Source: Candidatus Kryptoniota bacterium
Lineage (GTDB): Bacteria; Bacteroidota; Ignavibacteria; Kryptoniales; JAKASW01
DNA: 49,008 nt
Direction: 5' to 3'
Assembly: GCA_036567965.1 (NCBI GenBank)
Contig: DATCTN010000007.1
Span: forward strand, 1-49,008
Position numbers and translations under genes: made by a program. Positions 18,151-27,954 of the stretch are shown one piece after another (position 1 is the first letter of the stretch; each line of letters begins with the position of its first letter). Under the pieces are notes generated by a model, which saw nothing but the letters and a program-made list of their open reading frames with translations, had not been told where the DNA came from and did not search any database.

Positions 18151-18261
18151 AAATCTTCGGGCCATTCAGTCCAACTCGTTCAGGAAGCCGGGAAACCACA
18201 ATCTTGAGACCGGAAATCCACTAAGTTATTGAATTCAGGGGCAAATTCCCTGTCCATCTCA

Positions 18262-18290
18262 TTGCATTCCCCTCTAAAATTTGTTAAATT
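18262..18290 (+). promoter_or_regulatory. candidate promoter for the GH2-like/smc unit
   Basis: TTGCAT at 18262-18267, 17 bases, TAAATT at 18285-18290, leaving a leader of about 23 bases to the ATG at 18320. The gap upstream (18151-18261) shows no hairpin terminator, so read-through from the polyprenyl synthase is also possible. Confidence 0.4.
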
Positions 18291-18319
18291 TAGAAACGAT
18301 GGGAGTTAAACCTCAATAA

Positions 18320-20911
18320 ATGTTTAGCGGAAAGCCTTCCCACCTTATTTTCGTCGTGCTTTTTCTGATTTATCCTGCAATCTCCTTTGGCCAGCAGTCT
18401 GATCCGCAGACCGAACTTCTTCAAAATGGTCTGAAATACGACCAGATCACGCCAACCCGTGGCAGAATAGACCTTGGCGGGAAGTGGAGACTTTCAACCG
18501 ACGGCGGGAATGAATGGCGCACTGTAATGATTCCCTCTACACTGGACGACGACGGAAAGGTTACGTTTGAAAAACGACTTTTCATTCCCAAAGAATTTGT
18601 AGACCATAACATCTTCAGCCTTGTGTTTGGAAATGCCGGTGTCTCAACCGAGATTCGGGTCGACAATGAGTTTGTCGCAATTCATAACGGTGCTTATTCA
18701 AGAATCAACGCGAGGATACCTGACCGTCTACTTCAGGCGGGCAGTGAGAACGTCATAGACCTGATCTGCAATGACGAACTTGACCCTGCTTCCTCCATCC
18801 CGTTAAAACAACTCGCATTTCAACAGAAATGCTTCGCTGGACTGTTCAGGGATGTTTACATGGAGGTGAAGCCTCCAATCTATGTCGACAGGCCCGTAGT
18901 GAAGTCTGCTGTCAGTGAAAATGTGGCGGACCTTGAGAGCGACGTAGTCGTATATGCCTCCGACTACTCGAGGTACGGAATCGATTCGAGCGCCACCACA
19001 ATTCCGCTCAAGGTGCACGCGGAGCTCTTCGACAAGACGAGCGGCAAAATGGTAGCGAAGTCGCAGGACAATACTTTTGAACTTTCTCAGAATCACAATG
19101 CGAAAGTTCATCTCTCTCTGATTCTTCAGCACCCGAATTTGTGGAGTCCATCTTATCCTAACTTGTACGAGCTTCAAATATTCGTTTCGGGTACTTCAGG
19201 AGTTATAGATGAGTACGCAGAGAATATCGGGTTCAGGTCGTTTGGAATCACAGGAGGCAAGTTCTATCTGAATGGCGAGCGGATGTTCATCAAGAGTGTG
19301 AACTATGTCGCCGATCTGCCGAAAGTAAATGCTGCCGTCGACGAGGTGGGACTAGAGAAGGACATTGCGGTGATCAAAACGCTCGGCGCCAATGCGATCC
19401 GGGTGGTAGGGTATCCACCGTCACAGGAACTTCTTGATCTTTGCGACAAGTTCGGTCTCCTTGTATTTGAAGAAATGCCATTGAGCGACGCCCCGGAATC
19501 AGTCCTCGAGTCGCATCAATACCAGGGTGCACTCATCGGTTACCTGAGAGAAGTTATCCAGCAAACATTTTATCATCCGTCCATAGTGGCAATATCAGCG
19601 GGGACTAATATCGACCCGGGTGCCGAGGGCACCAGGGAATATGTCAGCTCCGTCGCAAGCATTATTCATAATGAGACAGATAAGCTGGTTTATTACACGC
19701 CCCTCTCAGGGATGAATGATGGTGCTGCCACCGACGCCGACTTCGTAGGAATTGACCTCACGCCATTGAACTCCGCCAGATCTCTGAAGTCGGTCATAAA
19801 CGATTTATCCACCCGGTATCCGAGCACGGTCTTCTTCGTGTCTTCGGTGGGTACGCAAACTCAGGTCGATAATCATAACGGTTATTCCGATCCTCTTTCG
19901 CTCGAGCACCAGGCAAGGTACCTGGTCGATGCGTACGAAGCGATCGACGATGCGAACTTTGCCGGCGTCTCGATAAACAGTTTCGCGGACTGGCAAGGCG
20001 CAGTTCCGCACCTTATGCCGAATGGTCATCCGTACCTCTACACTTTCGGGCTTGTTAGCTTCTGGAGAGAAAAGCGTCCTTCGTTTGCCGCGGTGAGGGC
20101 ACTGTTCAACGATGAAACCCTTCCGAGTCTCCCGATCGGCAACTACAGCGACACACCTCCGATCATCTACGTGGTGCTGTCGACTTTGCTCCTCGTGATC
20201 GTGACATATCTCCACTACAGCCGGCGGTGGTTCCGCGAAAGCGCGGCCCGCGCTGTATTTCGTCCTTATAATTTCTTCGCGGACATCCGCGACCAGCGGA
20301 TGATTTCGGCATTCCAGACGCTCACCGTCCTCTTCCTAGTCTCGGCTGGAATTTCTATTTATCTCTCGAGCCTCACATTTGCTTTCAGGGACAATTATGT
20401 CTTTGACAGGCTCCTCGGATTGATAATTCCCAGTGACTTCATAAAGATAAAAGTGGATTACCTGATCTGGCATCCGATGGAGTTTATTGTTGCGATGACC
20501 GTTTTGTTTATGCTTCTGGTTTCGATTACGACGTTCATAATAAAGCTCGTCTCGTATATCGTGAAAATCAGGCTCCAGCTCCTGAGTGCCTTCACCGTGG
20601 CGACCTGGTCGATGCTGCCTATGGCGATTCTTATCCTGGCAGACATGATACTCTTTCGTCTTCTCGGCGATCCAAGGTTCGTATGGGCCGCCATAATTGT
20701 TCTCGGTGCATTGTTTGTCCTCAGCCTCTTGAGGTTGTTTCACGGCATAGGAGTCATCTATGATCTGCCGATTGCGCGAGTCGGGGTTATTGGGTCGCTA
20801 CTAGTGATAATAGTCGTCCTCCTCGTCGCGTTTTATTATAACGGCGCGAACGGCATCATACCTTACGCGAAATTCTTCTACAGATTTATGGTCGAAAACA
20901 GAGCTGCCTAG
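18320..20911 (+). CDS. catalytically degenerate GH2-fold protein fused to a six-helix membrane domain
   Basis: 863 residues. A signal peptide (1-24) is followed by a jelly-roll sugar-binding-like domain (about 45-185, RGRIDLGGKWRL...), an Ig-like domain (190-310, ending NIGFRSFGI) and a GH2-type barrel (311-600, KFYLNGERMFIKSVNY...). Both catalytic glutamates appear lost: the acid/base NE site reads TNI (Asn430-Ile431), and the nucleophile site reads FVSSVG (Ser509). Six hydrophobic helices follow at about 613-632, 664-685, 719-741, 754-776, 787-807 and 820-840. The FRPYNFFADIRDQR stretch before the second helix resembles the entry of Yip1-type domains. It is probably a membrane-anchored periplasmic binding or sensing protein rather than a glycosidase. 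It abuts smc with no gap. Confidence 0.8.
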   Translation: MFSGKPSHLIFVVLFLIYPAISFGQQSDPQTELLQNGLKYDQITPTRGRIDLGGKWRLSTDGGNEWRTVMIPSTLDDDGKVTFEKRLFIPKEFVDHNIFSLVFGNAGVSTEIRVDNEFVAIHNGAYSRINARIPDRLLQAGSENVIDLICNDELDPASSIPLKQLAFQQKCFAGLFRDVYMEVKPPIYVDRPVVKSAVSENVADLESDVVVYASDYSRYGIDSSATTIPLKVHAELFDKTSGKMVAKSQDNTFELSQNHNAKVHLSLILQHPNLWSPSYPNLYELQIFVSGTSGVIDEYAENIGFRSFGITGGKFYLNGERMFIKSVNYVADLPKVNAAVDEVGLEKDIAVIKTLGANAIRVVGYPPSQELLDLCDKFGLLVFEEMPLSDAPESVLESHQYQGALIGYLREVIQQTFYHPSIVAISAGTNIDPGAEGTREYVSSVASIIHNETDKLVYYTPLSGMNDGAATDADFVGIDLTPLNSARSLKSVINDLSTRYPSTVFFVSSVGTQTQVDNHNGYSDPLSLEHQARYLVDAYEAIDDANFAGVSINSFADWQGAVPHLMPNGHPYLYTFGLVSFWREKRPSFAAVRALFNDETLPSLPIGNYSDTPPIIYVVLSTLLLVIVTYLHYSRRWFRESAARAVFRPYNFFADIRDQRMISAFQTLTVLFLVSAGISIYLSSLTFAFRDNYVFDRLLGLIIPSDFIKIKVDYLIWHPMEFIVAMTVLFMLLVSITTFIIKLVSYIVKIRLQLLSAFTVATWSMLPMAILILADMILFRLLGDPRFVWAAIIVLGALFVLSLLRLFHGIGVIYDLPIARVGVIGSLLVIIVVLLVAFYYNGANGIIPYAKFFYRFMVENRAA

Positions 20912-23900
20912 ATGTTCCTTTCTAAACTAGAGTTGTACGGATTCAAGTCTTTCGCGACCAGAACCGAATTGTCTTTCGAGGGCGGCATCACCTCCGTCGT
21001 CGGGCCGAACGGCTGCGGTAAAACCAATGTACTCGATTCGATACGCTGGGTCCTCGGCGAGCAGCGTACCAGCATGTTGAGAAGCGATTCGATGGAGAAC
21101 GTTATCTTCAACGGCTCCAAAGATAGGAAGCCGCTCGGCATGGCGGAAGTGACAATAACGATTAAGAACGATAAGGGACTCCTCCCTGTTGACTATGCAG
21201 AGGTGAGCCTGACCCGTCGTGTATTTCGCTCCGGAGAGAGCGAATATTTTATAAATAAGAACCAGTGTCGCTTGAAGGACATCCAGGATATGCTTATGGA
21301 TTCCGGGATGGCCGCAAGTGCGTATTCGGTGATCGAGTTGAAGATGGTCGAAGATATTCTCAGGGAGAACACCGACGAGCGAAGGAAGATGTTCGAAGAG
21401 GCTTCCGGCGTGACGAAATACAAGTCGCGAAGGAAAGCGGCCCTGGGAAAGCTCGAAGACGTCCAGCGTGATCTGCTGCGAGTGAACGACCTGATTTCCG
21501 AAATCGAGAAGAAGGTCAACTCACTCGAAAGGCAAGCTAAAAAGGCAGAGCAGTACAAGAGGTTCGTGGACGAACTAGGTTCTCTCGAGCGACAGTACTT
21601 GTTCTCCGAATATCATTCAGTCCTGAATAAGATTGCTCCCCTGAAGGAGAGTCTCGTCCAAAGTGAAAGCGAAAAGGCCAATACTCTCTCCGCACTTTCG
21701 CACCAGGAGGAATTGCTCAGACTCATCAGGTCCGAGATAGCAGACCTCGACAGGAGCTCGGCCTCACTGCGTTTGCAGAGATCGCAGAAGCAGGACCAGC
21801 TGCACGCCGTCGAAGAGGAAATCGCGGTTCTTGTCGAGCGGAAGAGAGGGCTCTCCGAGAATATGTCATCCCTTGAGAAGAGGAGGATCGATCTCTCGGC
21901 GAAGAATGAGAATTTGCAGCAGCAGACAGAAGAATTACAGATAAGTCTCAAGGAAAGCGAGGAAGAAGAACGGGAGCTCTCTGCAGATCTGAACAAGGAA
22001 CAGGACGACTTTAAGAAATTTGAGGAGCAACTTTTTGCCGCCCGGGAGAAATCGAATCTCGATCACGAAAACCTGATCAGGATTCTCAACGAGCTGGCGC
22101 TGAAGCAGAACGAACGCGAACGAGCCCATGCGCGACTGGAACGGGTCAGATCGCACAGCGATGAACTCGCGGCAAGGAAGACCCAGCTGGACAACGAAGC
22201 GAAGGAACTCTCCGACAGGCTTGCCGAAGCTGGACGCGAAAAAGAATCACTTGGCCGTCAAATAGATGCAGAGAAAGAAAAACTCAGCGACCTCGAAAGG
22301 CACAGGGAGGACCTGTTCGGAAAAATCGAGAGAACCAAGAGCGAAGCTCAAAAGGTTCGTGAGAATGCCCAGTCGAACCAGGCGAGGATCGATTTTCTTA
22401 ACGGACTTGTCGAGCATCTCGAAGGGGTTCCTGATGGCGCAAAAGCGCTCGCGCGTGGAGAGATCGGAGGCCTACCAAAGTTCGAGATACTCAGCGATCT
22501 CTTTTATGTCAACCAGGAGTACAGGATTGCTGCGGAGTCAATCCTGGGAGAGGCTTCGAACTATCTCGTTTCTCAGGACGAGCACACTGCGTTGAGCGCG
22601 GTCGATGCGCTGAGAAGCAGAGACCTGGGCAAGGTGACTTTCGTGTGCCTGGATCGAGTATCGGCGCCGATGCGGAAGTCTCCCGGCGGAAGCTTCAAAA
22701 GACTTATCGACCAGGTGCAGACTTCGTCTGAGAATGAAGTTCTGGCAAGGTACTTTTTCGAGAATGTGGTTGTCGTGAATAACTATTCAGAGGCTGAAAG
22801 GATTCTGAGCCAGGATCCTTCGTTGGTCTGCGTCAATTTCGCAGGCGATGTTTATTCCGCAAGGGGAATTATCCGGGGCGGAAGCATCAGGAAGACCGAA
22901 GGAGGTCGGGTCGGCAAGCTAAGGCAGTTGGAGGAGTTGAAAAACGAAAACTCCACTCTCAATCGCGAGCTCGCAGATCTTGAGCACGCTGTGGAGACCC
23001 TTCAGTCTGAAATGGATCTCTTGCCCATAAAGAGTGGCAACGAGACGCTTCGAGAAATGGAACTGAAGCTTGCCAGGATCGAGCAGTCAAACGTTGAAAC
23101 GGAACGGACTTATAATGCCATCGAGACGCAGATAGCTGATCTTGCAACGCGGGCAGCAAGACTCGAGATCGAAATATCGGAATCGCGCGGTGAACTTGAA
23201 GCATGCGAACTGGCACTTACGGGGCTGAACTCTTCGAAGGGCGCGGCGGATCATGAGTACCAGGCGTCCCTCGAAGCGTTGAAGCACATCGAAGAGGAAT
23301 ACCGCCGGAATAATGAAGAACTTCGTGACGCCCAGGCTCGCCATATTGAATGTATTAACAAGCTGAATTTCCTAAAGCGAGAAATACAGACCTCGCAGGA
23401 ACAGGTCAGCACAAATGTGGAAGGGATAGCACGAGCCCTGGAAGAAATGTCAACTACCTCTACCGTTATTGAACAGTCGCAACAGAAGGTGAACGAGCTG
23501 GACGAGCAAAGGGCAAGCCTCGCAACGGAAACTCAGGCTCTCGACTTTCAAATGAAAGAGCTGGATAACAAGGTCTCGGCAAAAAGGGAGTCAGATGAAG
23601 TCGAGGAGAAGAAGCTGAAGGACGCGAGGGCAAGCCATGAGCTTGCTGTGGAGGCGGCCCATCAGGTGAACCTGAAGATCAGCGAACTTGAAGCACACTC
23701 CAATGCAATCCTGGAAAGAGGGAAAGAGGAGTTCAATCTGGACCTTGGTCAGCAATCGATTGAATCATTGAAGATCCCCGGTGACTTCGATACGACGGCG
23801 GCTCACGAAAGGGTCAACTACCTGAAGGGGAGAGTTGAATCATTTGGCCCGGTCAACCTCGTTGCATTTTCGGAATATAACGAGGAAAAGCAGCGCTTTG

Positions 23901-24457
23901 ATTTTCTTACCGGTCAGAGAAGCGATCTGTTTGAAGCTGAAAAAACGCTTTCTACTACTATTGAAGAAATAAATCATACGGCGCATCAGAAGTTTCTAGA
24001 GACATTCGACCAGATTTCAGACAACTTCAAGACGACATTCCGAAGTCTTTTCGACGGAGGCGAAGCGGAGCTGAAACTTGAGCAAAACATCGATCCGCTC
24101 GAGGCGAAGATCGAAATATTTGCCAAGCCCGCCGGGAAAAGACCGCAATCGATCGATCTCCTATCGGCGGGAGAAAAGACGTTGACGGCAATCGCGCTCC
24201 TGTTCGCGATATATCTCGTCAAGCCCAGCCCGTTCTGTATCCTCGATGAAGTCGACGGACCGCTCGACGACAACAACACGGATAATTACGTTCGCATGAT
24301 TAAGAAGTTTTCCAGCGATACTCAGTTCATCGTGATCACTCATAACAAGCGTACGATGGAAGCGGCTGACACACTTTATGGTGTCACGATGGAGGAACAG
24401 GGAGTTTCAAAAGTAGTAGCCGTAAGATTCGTGGATGATTGGGTCATGAAGCAGTGA
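20912..24457 (+). CDS. smc: chromosome segregation protein SMC
   Basis: 1181 residues, the usual bacterial SMC length. Walker A is GPNGCGKTN (31-39), two long coiled coils flank a hinge (about 500-660), and the C-terminal head has LLSAGEKTLTA (signature) and ILDEVDGPLDDNN (Walker B). SMC dimers organise the nucleoid with ScpA/ScpB, which are not in the window. The signature has Ala where most bacterial SMCs have Gly (LSGGEK), a minor variation. The ATG begins on the base after the GH2-like stop, and the stop overlaps the next gene as GTGA. Confidence 0.97.
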   Translation: MFLSKLELYGFKSFATRTELSFEGGITSVVGPNGCGKTNVLDSIRWVLGEQRTSMLRSDSMENVIFNGSKDRKPLGMAEVTITIKNDKGLLPVDYAEVSLTRRVFRSGESEYFINKNQCRLKDIQDMLMDSGMAASAYSVIELKMVEDILRENTDERRKMFEEASGVTKYKSRRKAALGKLEDVQRDLLRVNDLISEIEKKVNSLERQAKKAEQYKRFVDELGSLERQYLFSEYHSVLNKIAPLKESLVQSESEKANTLSALSHQEELLRLIRSEIADLDRSSASLRLQRSQKQDQLHAVEEEIAVLVERKRGLSENMSSLEKRRIDLSAKNENLQQQTEELQISLKESEEEERELSADLNKEQDDFKKFEEQLFAAREKSNLDHENLIRILNELALKQNERERAHARLERVRSHSDELAARKTQLDNEAKELSDRLAEAGREKESLGRQIDAEKEKLSDLERHREDLFGKIERTKSEAQKVRENAQSNQARIDFLNGLVEHLEGVPDGAKALARGEIGGLPKFEILSDLFYVNQEYRIAAESILGEASNYLVSQDEHTALSAVDALRSRDLGKVTFVCLDRVSAPMRKSPGGSFKRLIDQVQTSSENEVLARYFFENVVVVNNYSEAERILSQDPSLVCVNFAGDVYSARGIIRGGSIRKTEGGRVGKLRQLEELKNENSTLNRELADLEHAVETLQSEMDLLPIKSGNETLREMELKLARIEQSNVETERTYNAIETQIADLATRAARLEIEISESRGELEACELALTGLNSSKGAADHEYQASLEALKHIEEEYRRNNEELRDAQARHIECINKLNFLKREIQTSQEQVSTNVEGIARALEEMSTTSTVIEQSQQKVNELDEQRASLATETQALDFQMKELDNKVSAKRESDEVEEKKLKDARASHELAVEAAHQVNLKISELEAHSNAILERGKEEFNLDLGQQSIESLKIPGDFDTTAAHERVNYLKGRVESFGPVNLVAFSEYNEEKQRFDFLTGQRSDLFEAEKTLSTTIEEINHTAHQKFLETFDQISDNFKTTFRSLFDGGEAELKLEQNIDPLEAKIEIFAKPAGKRPQSIDLLSAGEKTLTAIALLFAIYLVKPSPFCILDEVDGPLDDNNTDNYVRMIKKFSSDTQFIVITHNKRTMEAADTLYGVTMEEQGVSKVVAVRFVDDWVMKQ

Positions 24458-25167
24458 GCAGGCTTATTCCAAGAGTGTTTGTAGACTTCGACGGGACTAT
24501 AACAAAACAAGATGTCGGCAACGCATTCTTCAGAAAATTCGGAGATGAAAAGGTCTCACTTGAACTGGTCCGTAAGTGGAAGGCGGGGACACTCTCTGGT
24601 AAGGAGCTTCTCCTTGGGGAGGCCGCGACCGTCCGCACTTCCTACACTGAGGCGGTCAGGTTCGTTGAGAGTCTCGACATTGACATGACCTTTCTTACGT
24701 TCCTTGATTATTGCAGGACAGCGGGAATTGAGATCACGGTCTTGAGTGACGGATTGGATTTTTATATTGAGAGGATCATGGAGAAGAATGCAATAGCCGG
24801 TCTTCCCGTCTATTCCAATCGTGCGCGTTTCGTTTCCGACCGGCTTGAAGTCGACACACCTTACGAATCGGATTGTAAGTGGTGCGCCAACTGCAAAGGA
24901 TTCCAGATACTCTCGCACAGCGGTATCGATGACGCGATCATATACATCGGCAACGGATTCTCCGACCGATGTGCGGTCAAGTACGCGGACGTGGTGTTCG
25001 CGAAAGACGAACTCCTCAGATATTGTCAGGAGAACAATATCACATATCAACCGTTCAGGACGTTTGAAGATATTTTAATGAAATTCAGAAAAATGATAGA
25101 GGCCGGCGGCATCAGAAAGAGACACCAGGCAGAACTGAGACGCAGGGAGGCGTATCTCGCCGAGTGA
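24454..25167 (+). CDS. HAD-IB phosphatase, MtnX/phosphoserine phosphatase-like
   Basis: 237 residues from the GTG at 24454, which overlaps the smc stop as GTGA. Motif I is FVDFDGTIT (Asp11, Asp13), motif II is VLSDGLDFYI, and motif IV is YIGNGFSDRCA. A Cys-rich insert DCKWCANCKG in the cap region matches the CxxCK element of the MtnX/PHOSPHO-like branch. Substrates in this branch include methionine-salvage intermediates and small phosphomonoesters. No other methionine-salvage gene is nearby, so the substrate stays open. Confidence 0.8.
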   Translation: MSRLIPRVFVDFDGTITKQDVGNAFFRKFGDEKVSLELVRKWKAGTLSGKELLLGEAATVRTSYTEAVRFVESLDIDMTFLTFLDYCRTAGIEITVLSDGLDFYIERIMEKNAIAGLPVYSNRARFVSDRLEVDTPYESDCKWCANCKGFQILSHSGIDDAIIYIGNGFSDRCAVKYADVVFAKDELLRYCQENNITYQPFRTFEDILMKFRKMIEAGGIRKRHQAELRRREAYLAE

Positions 25168-25763
25168 CGGATCCTACTGAAAACAAAAACTGGAAGAGTC
25201 AGCTATTTACGTTCAGGAGCTACACTCCCATTCCGTTCTTGATTGTCATGCTACTCTTCTCCTCGCCGACCATCGCGTCACTCGTTGCAGGTTTCCTGAT
25301 CGCGCTGGTTGGAGAATCGGTGCGGTTCTGGGGAGTAGCGTACGCCGGAAGCGAGACAAGAACAACCGGCAGAGTGGGCGGAACTCAGCTCGTGACTAGC
25401 GGTCCCTATTCATTTGTGAGAAATCCCCTGTACGTGGGCAATGTCATCCTCTATCTCGGTGTAGGAATTATGTCGAACGCACTCACCCCGTACCTCCAGG
25501 TGATTGCCGTAATCTATTTCGCGCTTCAGTATTCCGCGATAGTCGGCATTGAAGAGAAGTATCTGGCAGAGACTTTTTCCGGCTGGAACGATTACGCGAG
25601 TAAGGTGCCTCGATTCATACCGCGACTTTCCCGCTTTGTCTCAGGACAAGTGCTCGTTCCGAACACGAAGAGGGCGCTTCGTTCTGAAAGATCGTCGCTT
25701 CTAGCGTTCGCCTCGATCAGCTGCCTCCTCTGTGTGATTTATATTGTTCGAGGTGCAAGTTGA
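25164..25763 (+). CDS. isoprenylcysteine carboxyl methyltransferase-like (ICMT/PEMT family) membrane protein
   Basis: 199 residues with about five hydrophobic helices. The family motif is SGPYSFVRNPLYVGN (about 79-93), with a Glu-x-x-Tyr pair further on (EEKYLAETF), which form the SAM and lipid site in this family. Bacterial members methylate lipids or unknown substrates. The GTG start overlaps the HAD stop as GTGA, and its own stop overlaps lpxB as TTGA. The position directly before the lipid A genes suggests a lipid substrate, which is inference. Confidence 0.82.
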   Translation: MTDPTENKNWKSQLFTFRSYTPIPFLIVMLLFSSPTIASLVAGFLIALVGESVRFWGVAYAGSETRTTGRVGGTQLVTSGPYSFVRNPLYVGNVILYLGVGIMSNALTPYLQVIAVIYFALQYSAIVGIEEKYLAETFSGWNDYASKVPRFIPRLSRFVSGQVLVPNTKRALRSERSSLLAFASISCLLCVIYIVRGAS

Positions 25764-26902
25764 CATCGACGCTGATGATTATCGCAGGCGAGACATCAGG
25801 CGACAAGCACGCAGCTCTTCTTGCCGAAAGTCTGCAAAAAGCTGCGGATGTCAGGTTATATGGCGTCGGCGGAGACAGGATGAAGGAAGCAGGCGTCGCG
25901 CTTATGCACCATGTCAGAGAAATGTCGGTAATGGGATTTTCTGAAGTGCTTTTCAGGATTCCTTTTTTAAGAAGAGTGAGCAGGGAACTCATCGAATCTA
26001 TCGACGCCAGGAAGCCGGACGGCGTAATACTTGTCGATTATCCCGGCTTCAATCTTCGTTTCGCTGCGCTCGCCAGAGCCCGAGGGCTCAAGGTAATTTA
26101 CTTCATAAGTCCTCAGGTCTGGGCGTGGGGAAAAGGAAGAATCGAAAAAATACGGCGCACAGTCGACCTGATGCTGACTGTTTTCAAATTTGAAGAGGAA
26201 ATGTACAAGGAGGAAGGAATCGACGCCCACTGGGTAGGGCATCCACTCGTTGATGAAATAACTCATCCCGACAGCTCGTCCTTCTCGGAATTTAAAAAGA
26301 AATATGGCATTGCGGAGGGATCGAAAATTCTGGCGCTCCTTCCAGGAAGCCGACTTCAGGAAATCAGAAGGATACTTCCTGGTATGCTCCGAACGGCTGA
26401 GTTACTGGCTGGGGGTCTACCACACGAAACAATTAAGATTGTCACTGTCATCGGATGCGCTCCCGGAATAGGGTCTAAGATATATGATGAGCTCACGGCC
26501 GGTTCTCGCGCCTATCCACTGCTTTGTCCTGACGTCGAGTCGTTACTCATTTCTTCAGATGCCGGGATTATCGCCAGCGGCACAGCGACTTTGGAAGCAG
26601 CACTTTATGGACTGCCGATTGCGGTTGTCTACAAAACCGGCTGGTTGAATTACCTGATTGGCAGATCGCTCGTAAAATTGAAATCGATATCTCTCGTGAA
26701 CATCGTTGCAGGGAAGGAAATTGTCAAAGAGTTTGTCCAGGGGAATTTTAAACCGGGAGAAGTTGCAGAGGCAGTAAGAGAGATGCTCGTCGCGGGCGGT
26801 GTCGCGGAGAAGATGAGAAATGAGTATAAAGAGGTCCGCAGGATCCTCGGTGAAAAAGGTGCGACGGACAGGGCGGCTAAATTGATTTTGAATTCGATCT
26901 GA
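25760..26902 (+). CDS. lpxB: lipid-A-disaccharide synthase
   Basis: 380 residues, family GT19. The N-terminus has MIIAGETSGDKHAALL (6-21), and PQVWAWGKGRI, VGHPLVDE and LPGSRLQEI are the conserved blocks. It joins lipid X to UDP-diacylglucosamine to give the tetra-acylated disaccharide on the inner membrane. It starts at a TTG overlapping the methyltransferase stop by 4 nt. lpxK follows with a TGATG overlap, so two consecutive steps of lipid A synthesis are coupled. Confidence 0.95.
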   Translation: MTSTLMIIAGETSGDKHAALLAESLQKAADVRLYGVGGDRMKEAGVALMHHVREMSVMGFSEVLFRIPFLRRVSRELIESIDARKPDGVILVDYPGFNLRFAALARARGLKVIYFISPQVWAWGKGRIEKIRRTVDLMLTVFKFEEEMYKEEGIDAHWVGHPLVDEITHPDSSSFSEFKKKYGIAEGSKILALLPGSRLQEIRRILPGMLRTAELLAGGLPHETIKIVTVIGCAPGIGSKIYDELTAGSRAYPLLCPDVESLLISSDAGIIASGTATLEAALYGLPIAVVYKTGWLNYLIGRSLVKLKSISLVNIVAGKEIVKEFVQGNFKPGEVAEAVREMLVAGGVAEKMRNEYKEVRRILGEKGATDRAAKLILNSI

Positions 26903-27954
26903 TGAAGGACTTGGCGAGAAAAATATTGTATCCGTTCGATGCACTATATGCTGCTGCGGTCACTGCGCGCAATTACGCGTATGATCATGAATTGTTGAAC
27001 TCCGAGCATCTTCCCGCGCCGGTATTGTCCGTGGGGAATATCTCAGTCGGGGGATCAGGGAAGACGCCGTTCACAATGTACCTCATCGGGAAACTCCTCG
27101 AGTCAGGTCGTAAACCGGCAGTTTTGTCCCGCGGGTATATGAGATTAACGGAAGATCTTGCGATCTCTTGTCCTGCTCAAGGCTTCATGGCCGACGTTCG
27201 CTCATTGGGCGATGAGCCCGCATTGATCTCGCAATCTTTTCCTGCCGTTCCGGTGGCGGTCAATAGGGACCGATTCAAAGCAGGGATGGAGGTTATTGAA
27301 AAGTGTGGCGCCGATATCTTTATCCTCGATGACGGATTTCAAAATCGAGAGCTGGCTCGCGATGCAGATTTTGTGTTGATGAGAGACTCGCTGGCTGATC
27401 TGACCGATCAATATCTCCCGTCCGGAAATCTGCGCGACTCGAAAAAACGCCTGGGTCAGGCACAGATCATCGTCCTCACGTCTCACGAACGGTTTGGTCT
27501 GCACGAAACGGATTTCGGCATATTGAGGAAGTTCAGCGATGCGGCCGTTGCGGGAGTGAGTTTCTTGCTCTCGCATTTCGCAGATGTTGCAGGATCGGTA
27601 TATTCGACGGATCAGCTCCGTGAAAGAGAGGTAGTGGCATTTTGTGGCATCGCCGGCCCTGATGCTTTCTTTGACGGAGTCCGGAGACTCAATCTAAATG
27701 TGACCGGCGTGAAAGCCTTCCGCGATCATCACTGGTACGATGAGTACGATCTTGACGAAATTTTCGGCGGCAATGATGAGTCGATTGCCGTCACAACTTC
27801 CAAAGACGCCGTGAGGATTTTTCTTGACGGGGAGTTGAACGGACACGACGATGTGAAACGCATATACGCGCTTCAGGAGAAAGCGGTTGTGAATTTCGGC
27901 AGTGAGCACATAGACGCCGCGTTGTCAACAGCACTCGGAGCTGTCTATGTTTAA
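26902..27954 (+). CDS. lpxK: tetraacyldisaccharide 4'-kinase
   Basis: 350 residues. The N-terminal membrane-associated helix is followed by SVGNISVGGSGKTPF (43-57), the LpxK P-loop. The downstream motifs LSRGY, GDEP, ILDDGFQN and LPSGNLRD are characteristic. It phosphorylates the 4'-position of the disaccharide made by LpxB. The ATG overlaps the lpxB stop, and its own stop overlaps the amidotransferase by 8 nt. Confidence 0.95.
   Translation: MKDLARKILYPFDALYAAAVTARNYAYDHELLNSEHLPAPVLSVGNISVGGSGKTPFTMYLIGKLLESGRKPAVLSRGYMRLTEDLAISCPAQGFMADVRSLGDEPALISQSFPAVPVAVNRDRFKAGMEVIEKCGADIFILDDGFQNRELARDADFVLMRDSLADLTDQYLPSGNLRDSKKRLGQAQIIVLTSHERFGLHETDFGILRKFSDAAVAGVSFLLSHFADVAGSVYSTDQLREREVVAFCGIAGPDAFFDGVRRLNLNVTGVKAFRDHHWYDEYDLDEIFGGNDESIAVTTSKDAVRIFLDGELNGHDDVKRIYALQEKAVVNFGSEHIDAALSTALGAVYV

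Follow-up and report, generated by a model that had tools for sequence, protein, structure and literature searches.

A GH2-fold protein fused to a Yip1-like membrane domain and encoded next to smc in Bacteroidota

Background

The smc gene of a Candidatus Kryptoniota genome is preceded by a gene whose product joins the fold of a GH2 glycosidase to a set of membrane helices. Is this product an envelope enzyme, or a glycosidase fold that has been put to another use, and what does its position beside smc mean? The gene occupies positions 18320-20911 (+) of the window, that is, of the whole stretch of 49,008 nucleotides that was analysed, and encodes a protein of 863 residues from an ATG start. The initial annotation, made from the sequence alone, had described it as a GH2-fold protein lacking both catalytic glutamates and as a possible glycan-binding sensor or scaffold that ties the envelope to growth.

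Domain organization and the GH2 fold

The protein starts with a signal helix visible in the hydropathy profile (residues 6-24, 18335-18391, +), which presumably directs Sec export. The ectodomain that follows (residues 41-600, 18440-20119, +) consists of a jelly roll, an Ig-like domain and a TIM barrel, and this GH2 layout, proposed beforehand, is borne out both by Pfam matches and by superposition of an AlphaFold2 model. PF02836 (GH2 TIM barrel, 1.7e-15) and PF00703 (GH2 Ig-like, 1.9e-11) were matched above the cut-off in the window protein and also in all 55 relatives scanned; the jelly roll family PF02837 was detected by Pfam in 45 of these relatives and undetected in the window copy itself. 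In a PDB sequence search the closest solved relatives were GH2 beta-glucuronidases and galactosidases. The model, built from an alignment of 55 orthologue sequences, has a mean pLDDT of 88.5 and a pTM of 0.84, and its residues 41-600 superpose on GH2 enzymes with VIA-align Z scores of 36-39 (rmsd 2.1-3.8 Å over 507-548 residues) and a Foldseek E of 3e-40. The protein thus shares the three-domain fold and both Pfam families with beta-glucuronidase, beta-galacturonidase (6ncw) and LacZ.

It differs from these enzymes in its fusion to a polytopic membrane part and in its active site. In GH2 enzymes strand 4 ends in the acid/base, a Glu that follows an Asn, and strand 7 in the nucleophile Glu (E-[YF]-G). 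The window protein reads T429-N430-I431 (19604-19612, +) at the first place and S508-S509-V510-G511 (19841-19852, +) at the second, exactly as first annotated. In phmmer alignments N430 falls on the Glu of the N-E pair of glucuronidase 4jkm, so that T429 falls on the Asn, and S509 falls on the nucleophile Glu. The model puts N430 at the end of barrel strand 422-431 and S509 at that of strand 505-510; the catalytic positions were assigned from the sequence alignments together with these strand ends. Neither site has a Glu and the claimed loss of both glutamates stands. Five more active-site residues of GH2 (H, H, N, Y and W) are gone as well.

The Yip1-like membrane domain

Hydropathy gives six transmembrane helices. 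TM1 (residues 613-631, 20156-20212, +), which is also present in the model, joins the ectodomain to the membrane part, and the others span residues 670-688, 723-741, 765-783, 788-806 and 821-839. Between TM1 and TM2 lies the segment R636-R660 (RRxFRExxxRxxxRPYNFFxDxRDxR, 20225-20299, +), which is predicted to be cytosolic from the signal peptide, the number of TM helices and its positive charge.

TM2-TM6 are spanned by a match to PF04893, the Yip1 family (profile positions 4-171; 20255-20830, +; profile and model). The Yip1-type nature of the C-terminal region, as annotated, holds for the family but not for the window copy taken alone, which scores E 2e-4 and 21.7 bits and is therefore below the Pfam cut-off of 28.6. 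At E <= 0.01 PF04893 matches 55 of 99 membrane domains of the family (best 1.4e-9), and the next-best Pfam family matches only one of the 99. In the alignments the similarity to Yip1 is accordingly clear at the family level. Moreover, five helices (TM2-TM6) follow a cationic N-terminal segment, the arrangement expected of a Yip1 domain, with the segment presumably on the cytosolic side. The membrane domain alone was modelled at a pLDDT of 94 (99 sequences). In a fold search of this domain against the PDB no match fell below E 1.1, the highest VIA Z was 6.1 and Yip1 proteins were absent from the rows; these matches, like those of a PDB sequence search with the domain, were at chance level and tie its fold to no solved structure.

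The five-helix core after a cytosolic segment is shared with prokaryotic proteins annotated as 'YIP1 family protein' or DUF1282 and with the eukaryotic YIPF proteins; unlike these, the present family adds TM1 and a large GH2 ectodomain. The window protein is the sole Yip1 match in its genome and belongs to a conserved, single-copy family of Bacteroidota. No description of a GH2-Yip1 fusion was found in the open-licence literature, and this real and conserved membrane protein has apparently not been described before. As of a 2019 review, prokaryotic Yip1 members were without any reported function (PMC6682643). In this family, across several classes, prokaryotic Yip1 domains have a constant extracellular partner and a constant neighbour in the genome.

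Distribution and loss of the catalytic residues

The gene was matched in 60 of 61 relative genomes, mostly at full length, a few matches being partial or to other GH2 genes. Members were gathered by an alignment-based scan of genome contigs; a scan with the single protein gave no matches. They occur across the class of the window (the titles of near-identical or related contig records name Ignavibacteria, Ignavibacteriae, Kapaibacterium, Kryptonia and Chlorobiota), and other classes of Bacteroidota contribute full-length members from three families (f21, f24 and f39). The gene is absent from the genomes of f26, which we take to be Chlorobiaceae.

Among 141 distinct full-length members a Glu stands at the acid position in 31, at the nucleophile position in 23 and at both in seven. 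Consequently the losses read in the window copy recur, as one or both glutamates, in all members but these seven, which all belong to the sister family f2 (records named Kryptonium, Chrysopegis kryptomonas or Kryptonia). The acid site is N, D or G in the genus of the window and NE in 7/7 Kryptonia members; the nucleophile site is S or A in the former and E in 7/7 of the latter. Of the seven GH2 site residues counted, f2 retains the full set, members of the window genus zero or one, and the remaining 125 rows no more than four. The whole ectodomain of an f2 member is matched by a beta-galacturonidase at 1.2e-52, as against 3.5e-26 for the best PDB match of the window copy. A full GH2 site is found within the family, in the Kryptonia orthologue.

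Given an intact ancestor, parsimony requires the pair of glutamates to have been lost six or seven times; it also permits a regain, one gain against six or seven losses. We infer from the sequences that f2 retained the ancestral site rather than regained it, because its site is complete and single glutamates are scattered elsewhere in the family. In the tree of the membrane domain the window genus adjoins Kryptonia (SH 0.906), whereas in the GH2 tree it sits on a long branch away from it. This conflict is read as fast change in the window lineage, a domain swap in Kryptonia being the alternative.

These findings bear on the possibility that the barrel is still enzymatically active, on an envelope glycan and through a moved or different catalytic residue, with Kryptonia keeping ordinary GH2 chemistry. 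The full site of Kryptonia, the single glutamates kept by some other members and, in the window copy, D432 two residues from the acid site would fit such an enzyme. However, the window copy has no Asp or Glu within several residues of the nucleophile position and has also lost five further site residues (H, H, N, Y and W), and the clades replaced their sites differently (G, N, S or D at one, S, K, R or G at the other), which fits loss and not one new mechanism. We regard continued catalysis as quite improbable.

The ectodomain can also disappear. In family f11 (L055, L056 and L057) it is gone, and TM1 with the Yip1-like domain is left as a protein of 258-312 aa encoded directly upstream of smc. 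A series of orthologues at one gene position leads from catalytically complete proteins (Kryptonia) through dead ones (the window lineage and others) to proteins with no ectodomain (f11), so that the step from enzyme to pseudoenzyme can be put to the test. Homologues that encode a barrel with active glutamates and the membrane part in separate genes would speak against this account; they were sought and none was found among the relatives. The fusion persists in the Kryptonia homologues with their intact catalytic site, and no GH2 partner could be detected for the homologues reduced to the membrane domain. Two frames of G044 (L058:7330-10057) were considered as such separate genes and rejected, since each runs on into unrelated sequence; this orthologue, in a single-contig genome, looks like one gene broken into two frames, either as a pseudogene or by a sequencing error.

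The family gene was also seen in L139 and L099, whose records bear the titles Armatimonadetes and Anaerolineales. Over its match L099 shows 100% identity with a Chlorobi record, and for this reason both are probably mis-binned or misnamed assemblies.

Selection on the ectodomain and its possible role

Between close orthologues the dN/dS of the GH2 domains is 0.037-0.133, and about 0.04-0.13 for catalytically incomplete domains in unsaturated pairs; the pair L049/L132 of the window genus gives 0.052. These values, obtained by simple Nei-Gojobori counting with high dS in several pairs, are similar to those of the membrane domains. The catalytically dead GH2 domains are under purifying selection. 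Within the window genus conservation peaks in TM1 and the cytosolic segment that follows it (0.96); in the barrel, whose mean is 0.81, the ends of b7 and b8 at the mouth reach 0.90-0.93 and rank with the most conserved loops. A motif at the barrel mouth, N518-x-x-G521-Y522-x-D524-x-x-S527-x-x-x-Q531 (19871-19912, +), is kept family-wide despite the loss of the nucleophile.

The window protein is best read, from alignments and model, as a pseudoenzyme in which the GH2 fold was kept, the chemistry lost and the domain held under selection. That the GH2 part is instead a decaying relic without function is scarcely credible. The active site has indeed been lost on several lines, f11 has no ectodomain and one copy, that of G044, is disrupted, but the fold is confidently modelled as intact and full-length open frames occur in over 130 distinct members. 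The reading of decay was rejected, the dN/dS values being too low for it.

For what purpose might the barrel be kept? Most likely the protein is an inner-membrane envelope protein in which the GH2 barrel has been turned into a binding or scaffold module. An ancestral GH2 glycosidase would have become joined to a Yip1-like five-helix membrane domain, the architecture that is observed today; catalysis would then have been lost on several lines while selection retained the barrel as a non-catalytic module. The barrel most likely binds a ligand in the periplasm, which could be an envelope glycan, a sugar lipid or a protein; the membrane domain, together with its conserved cytosolic segment, would relay this or serve envelope growth as a scaffold. 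Sugar may be bound weakly or not at all by a pocket from which seven active-site residues have been lost. In addition, f11 has dispensed with the ectodomain, so that the GH2 part is not always needed, which counts against this reading.

GH2 enzymes are commonly oligomers, and the barrel might merely stabilise or assemble the membrane domain by oligomerisation, with no ligand of its own. Such a structural or chaperone-like part would agree with purifying selection on a barrel that has no fixed pocket chemistry across clades, and it has a precedent in rBAT, a protein with a glucosidase-like ectodomain that regulates the amino acid transporter with which it pairs (PMC9110406). Nevertheless, the barrel mouth is conserved above the barrel mean in the window genus, which suggests a pocket in use, and f11 keeps the membrane domain with no barrel at all; a purely structural barrel is in our judgement rather doubtful.

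For glycosidase-like ectodomains that took on another task there are precedents, to be taken as analogies only. Klotho, which lacks the conserved GH1 glutamates and acts as a co-receptor (PMC10628560), is likewise a membrane-anchored ectodomain of glycosidase fold, although it is a single-pass animal protein of GH1. The GH13-like heavy subunits rBAT and 4F2hc likewise place a glucosidase-like ectodomain at the service of a membrane protein (PMC9110406), but they belong to another GH family and are separate chains. Klotho and rBAT show that an ectodomain with a glycosidase fold can turn into a co-receptor or into the partner of a membrane protein.

Genomic neighbourhood

The smc gene (20912-24457, +) starts at 20912, right after the TAG of the GH2-Yip1 gene at 20909-20911, without a gap, as annotated. 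It is followed in the same unit by genes for a HAD phosphatase (24439-25167, +) and an ICMT/PEMT-type methyltransferase (25164-25763, +; Pfam), by lpxB (25760-26902, +; Pfam) and by lpxK (26902-27954, +; Pfam). A survey of synteny among the 134 distinct members with enough flanking sequence placed smc directly downstream on the same strand in 102, with a median gap of 9 bp, and the adjacency extends to families of other classes (L155-L165), the link being far older than could be told from the window alone. The remaining 32 members, which lie away from smc, belong to families f5, f8, f15, f16 and f18 and to Kapaibacterium-named records. The gene after smc encodes HAD, ICMT or LpxB in 63/92 loci and something else in 29/92; the pair formed by the gene and smc therefore outlasts the rest of the unit. 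The proposed unit with lpxB and lpxK is thus present downstream in the window, but its link is less constant than that with smc, and the lipid A part of the original proposal is weaker for that reason.

This constancy invites the view that the Yip1-like domain and the cytosolic segment anchor or regulate SMC at the membrane, tying chromosome segregation to the envelope, while the GH2 barrel senses or is anchored to the cell wall. The near-zero gap, a link kept over several classes, when other neighbours change and even in the ectodomain-less f11, and the high conservation of the predicted cytosolic R636-R660 could all be cited for it. However, G037, G068, G072, G075, G076, G078 and others, genomes of Chlorobiaceae size among them, have smc but not the gene, the same cytosolic motif persists in a clade without smc adjacency and so is not specific to the linkage, and gene order alone can mean co-regulation. 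The ScpA of the window's genome is an ordinary, separate gene, and no kleisin or winged-helix (ScpA, ScpB) Pfam match was found in the GH2-Yip1 protein. A role as anchor or regulator of SMC is consequently unlikely, and its stricter form, a Bacteroidota-specific anchor whose cytosolic loop holds or regulates SMC while the dead barrel reads or grips envelope glycan, is very improbable. If true, it would couple chromosome segregation to envelope growth.

Physical contact with SMC is not implied by the linkage, because smc occurs without the gene and the motif persists in the non-smc clade, and the data do not require it. The linkage may reflect co-regulation alone; it suggests co-production with growth machinery, and the protein would be expressed along with smc and, in the case of the window, with the lipid A genes as a growth unit, the gene order being observed and the co-expression presumed from it. 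An inner-membrane pseudoenzyme whose barrel serves as a non-catalytic binding module and which is made with smc in a growth unit is the best explanation of the whole, to which we give about an even chance of being correct.

In G037, of the f11 family, smc is present and there is no match to the membrane domain. Upstream genes vary among the members and include a patatin, a triose-phosphate isomerase (read from its N-terminus only) and PfkB. In relatives of the genus a gene for a patatin-like phospholipase (293 aa, L047:6854-7735) lies between a polyprenyl synthetase gene and the GH2-Yip1 gene; the window has only 169 bp (18151-18319) at this position, and its genome has no close copy of the patatin, the best match being 30% to part of a 914-aa frame. 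Away from smc, in L069 (910-10496), the GH2-Yip1 gene is divergent from a gene for a 2271-aa SprA (PF14349, gliding/type 9 secretion) and is itself followed by apparent hrcA, grpE and dnaJ genes, named by the look of their sequences only.
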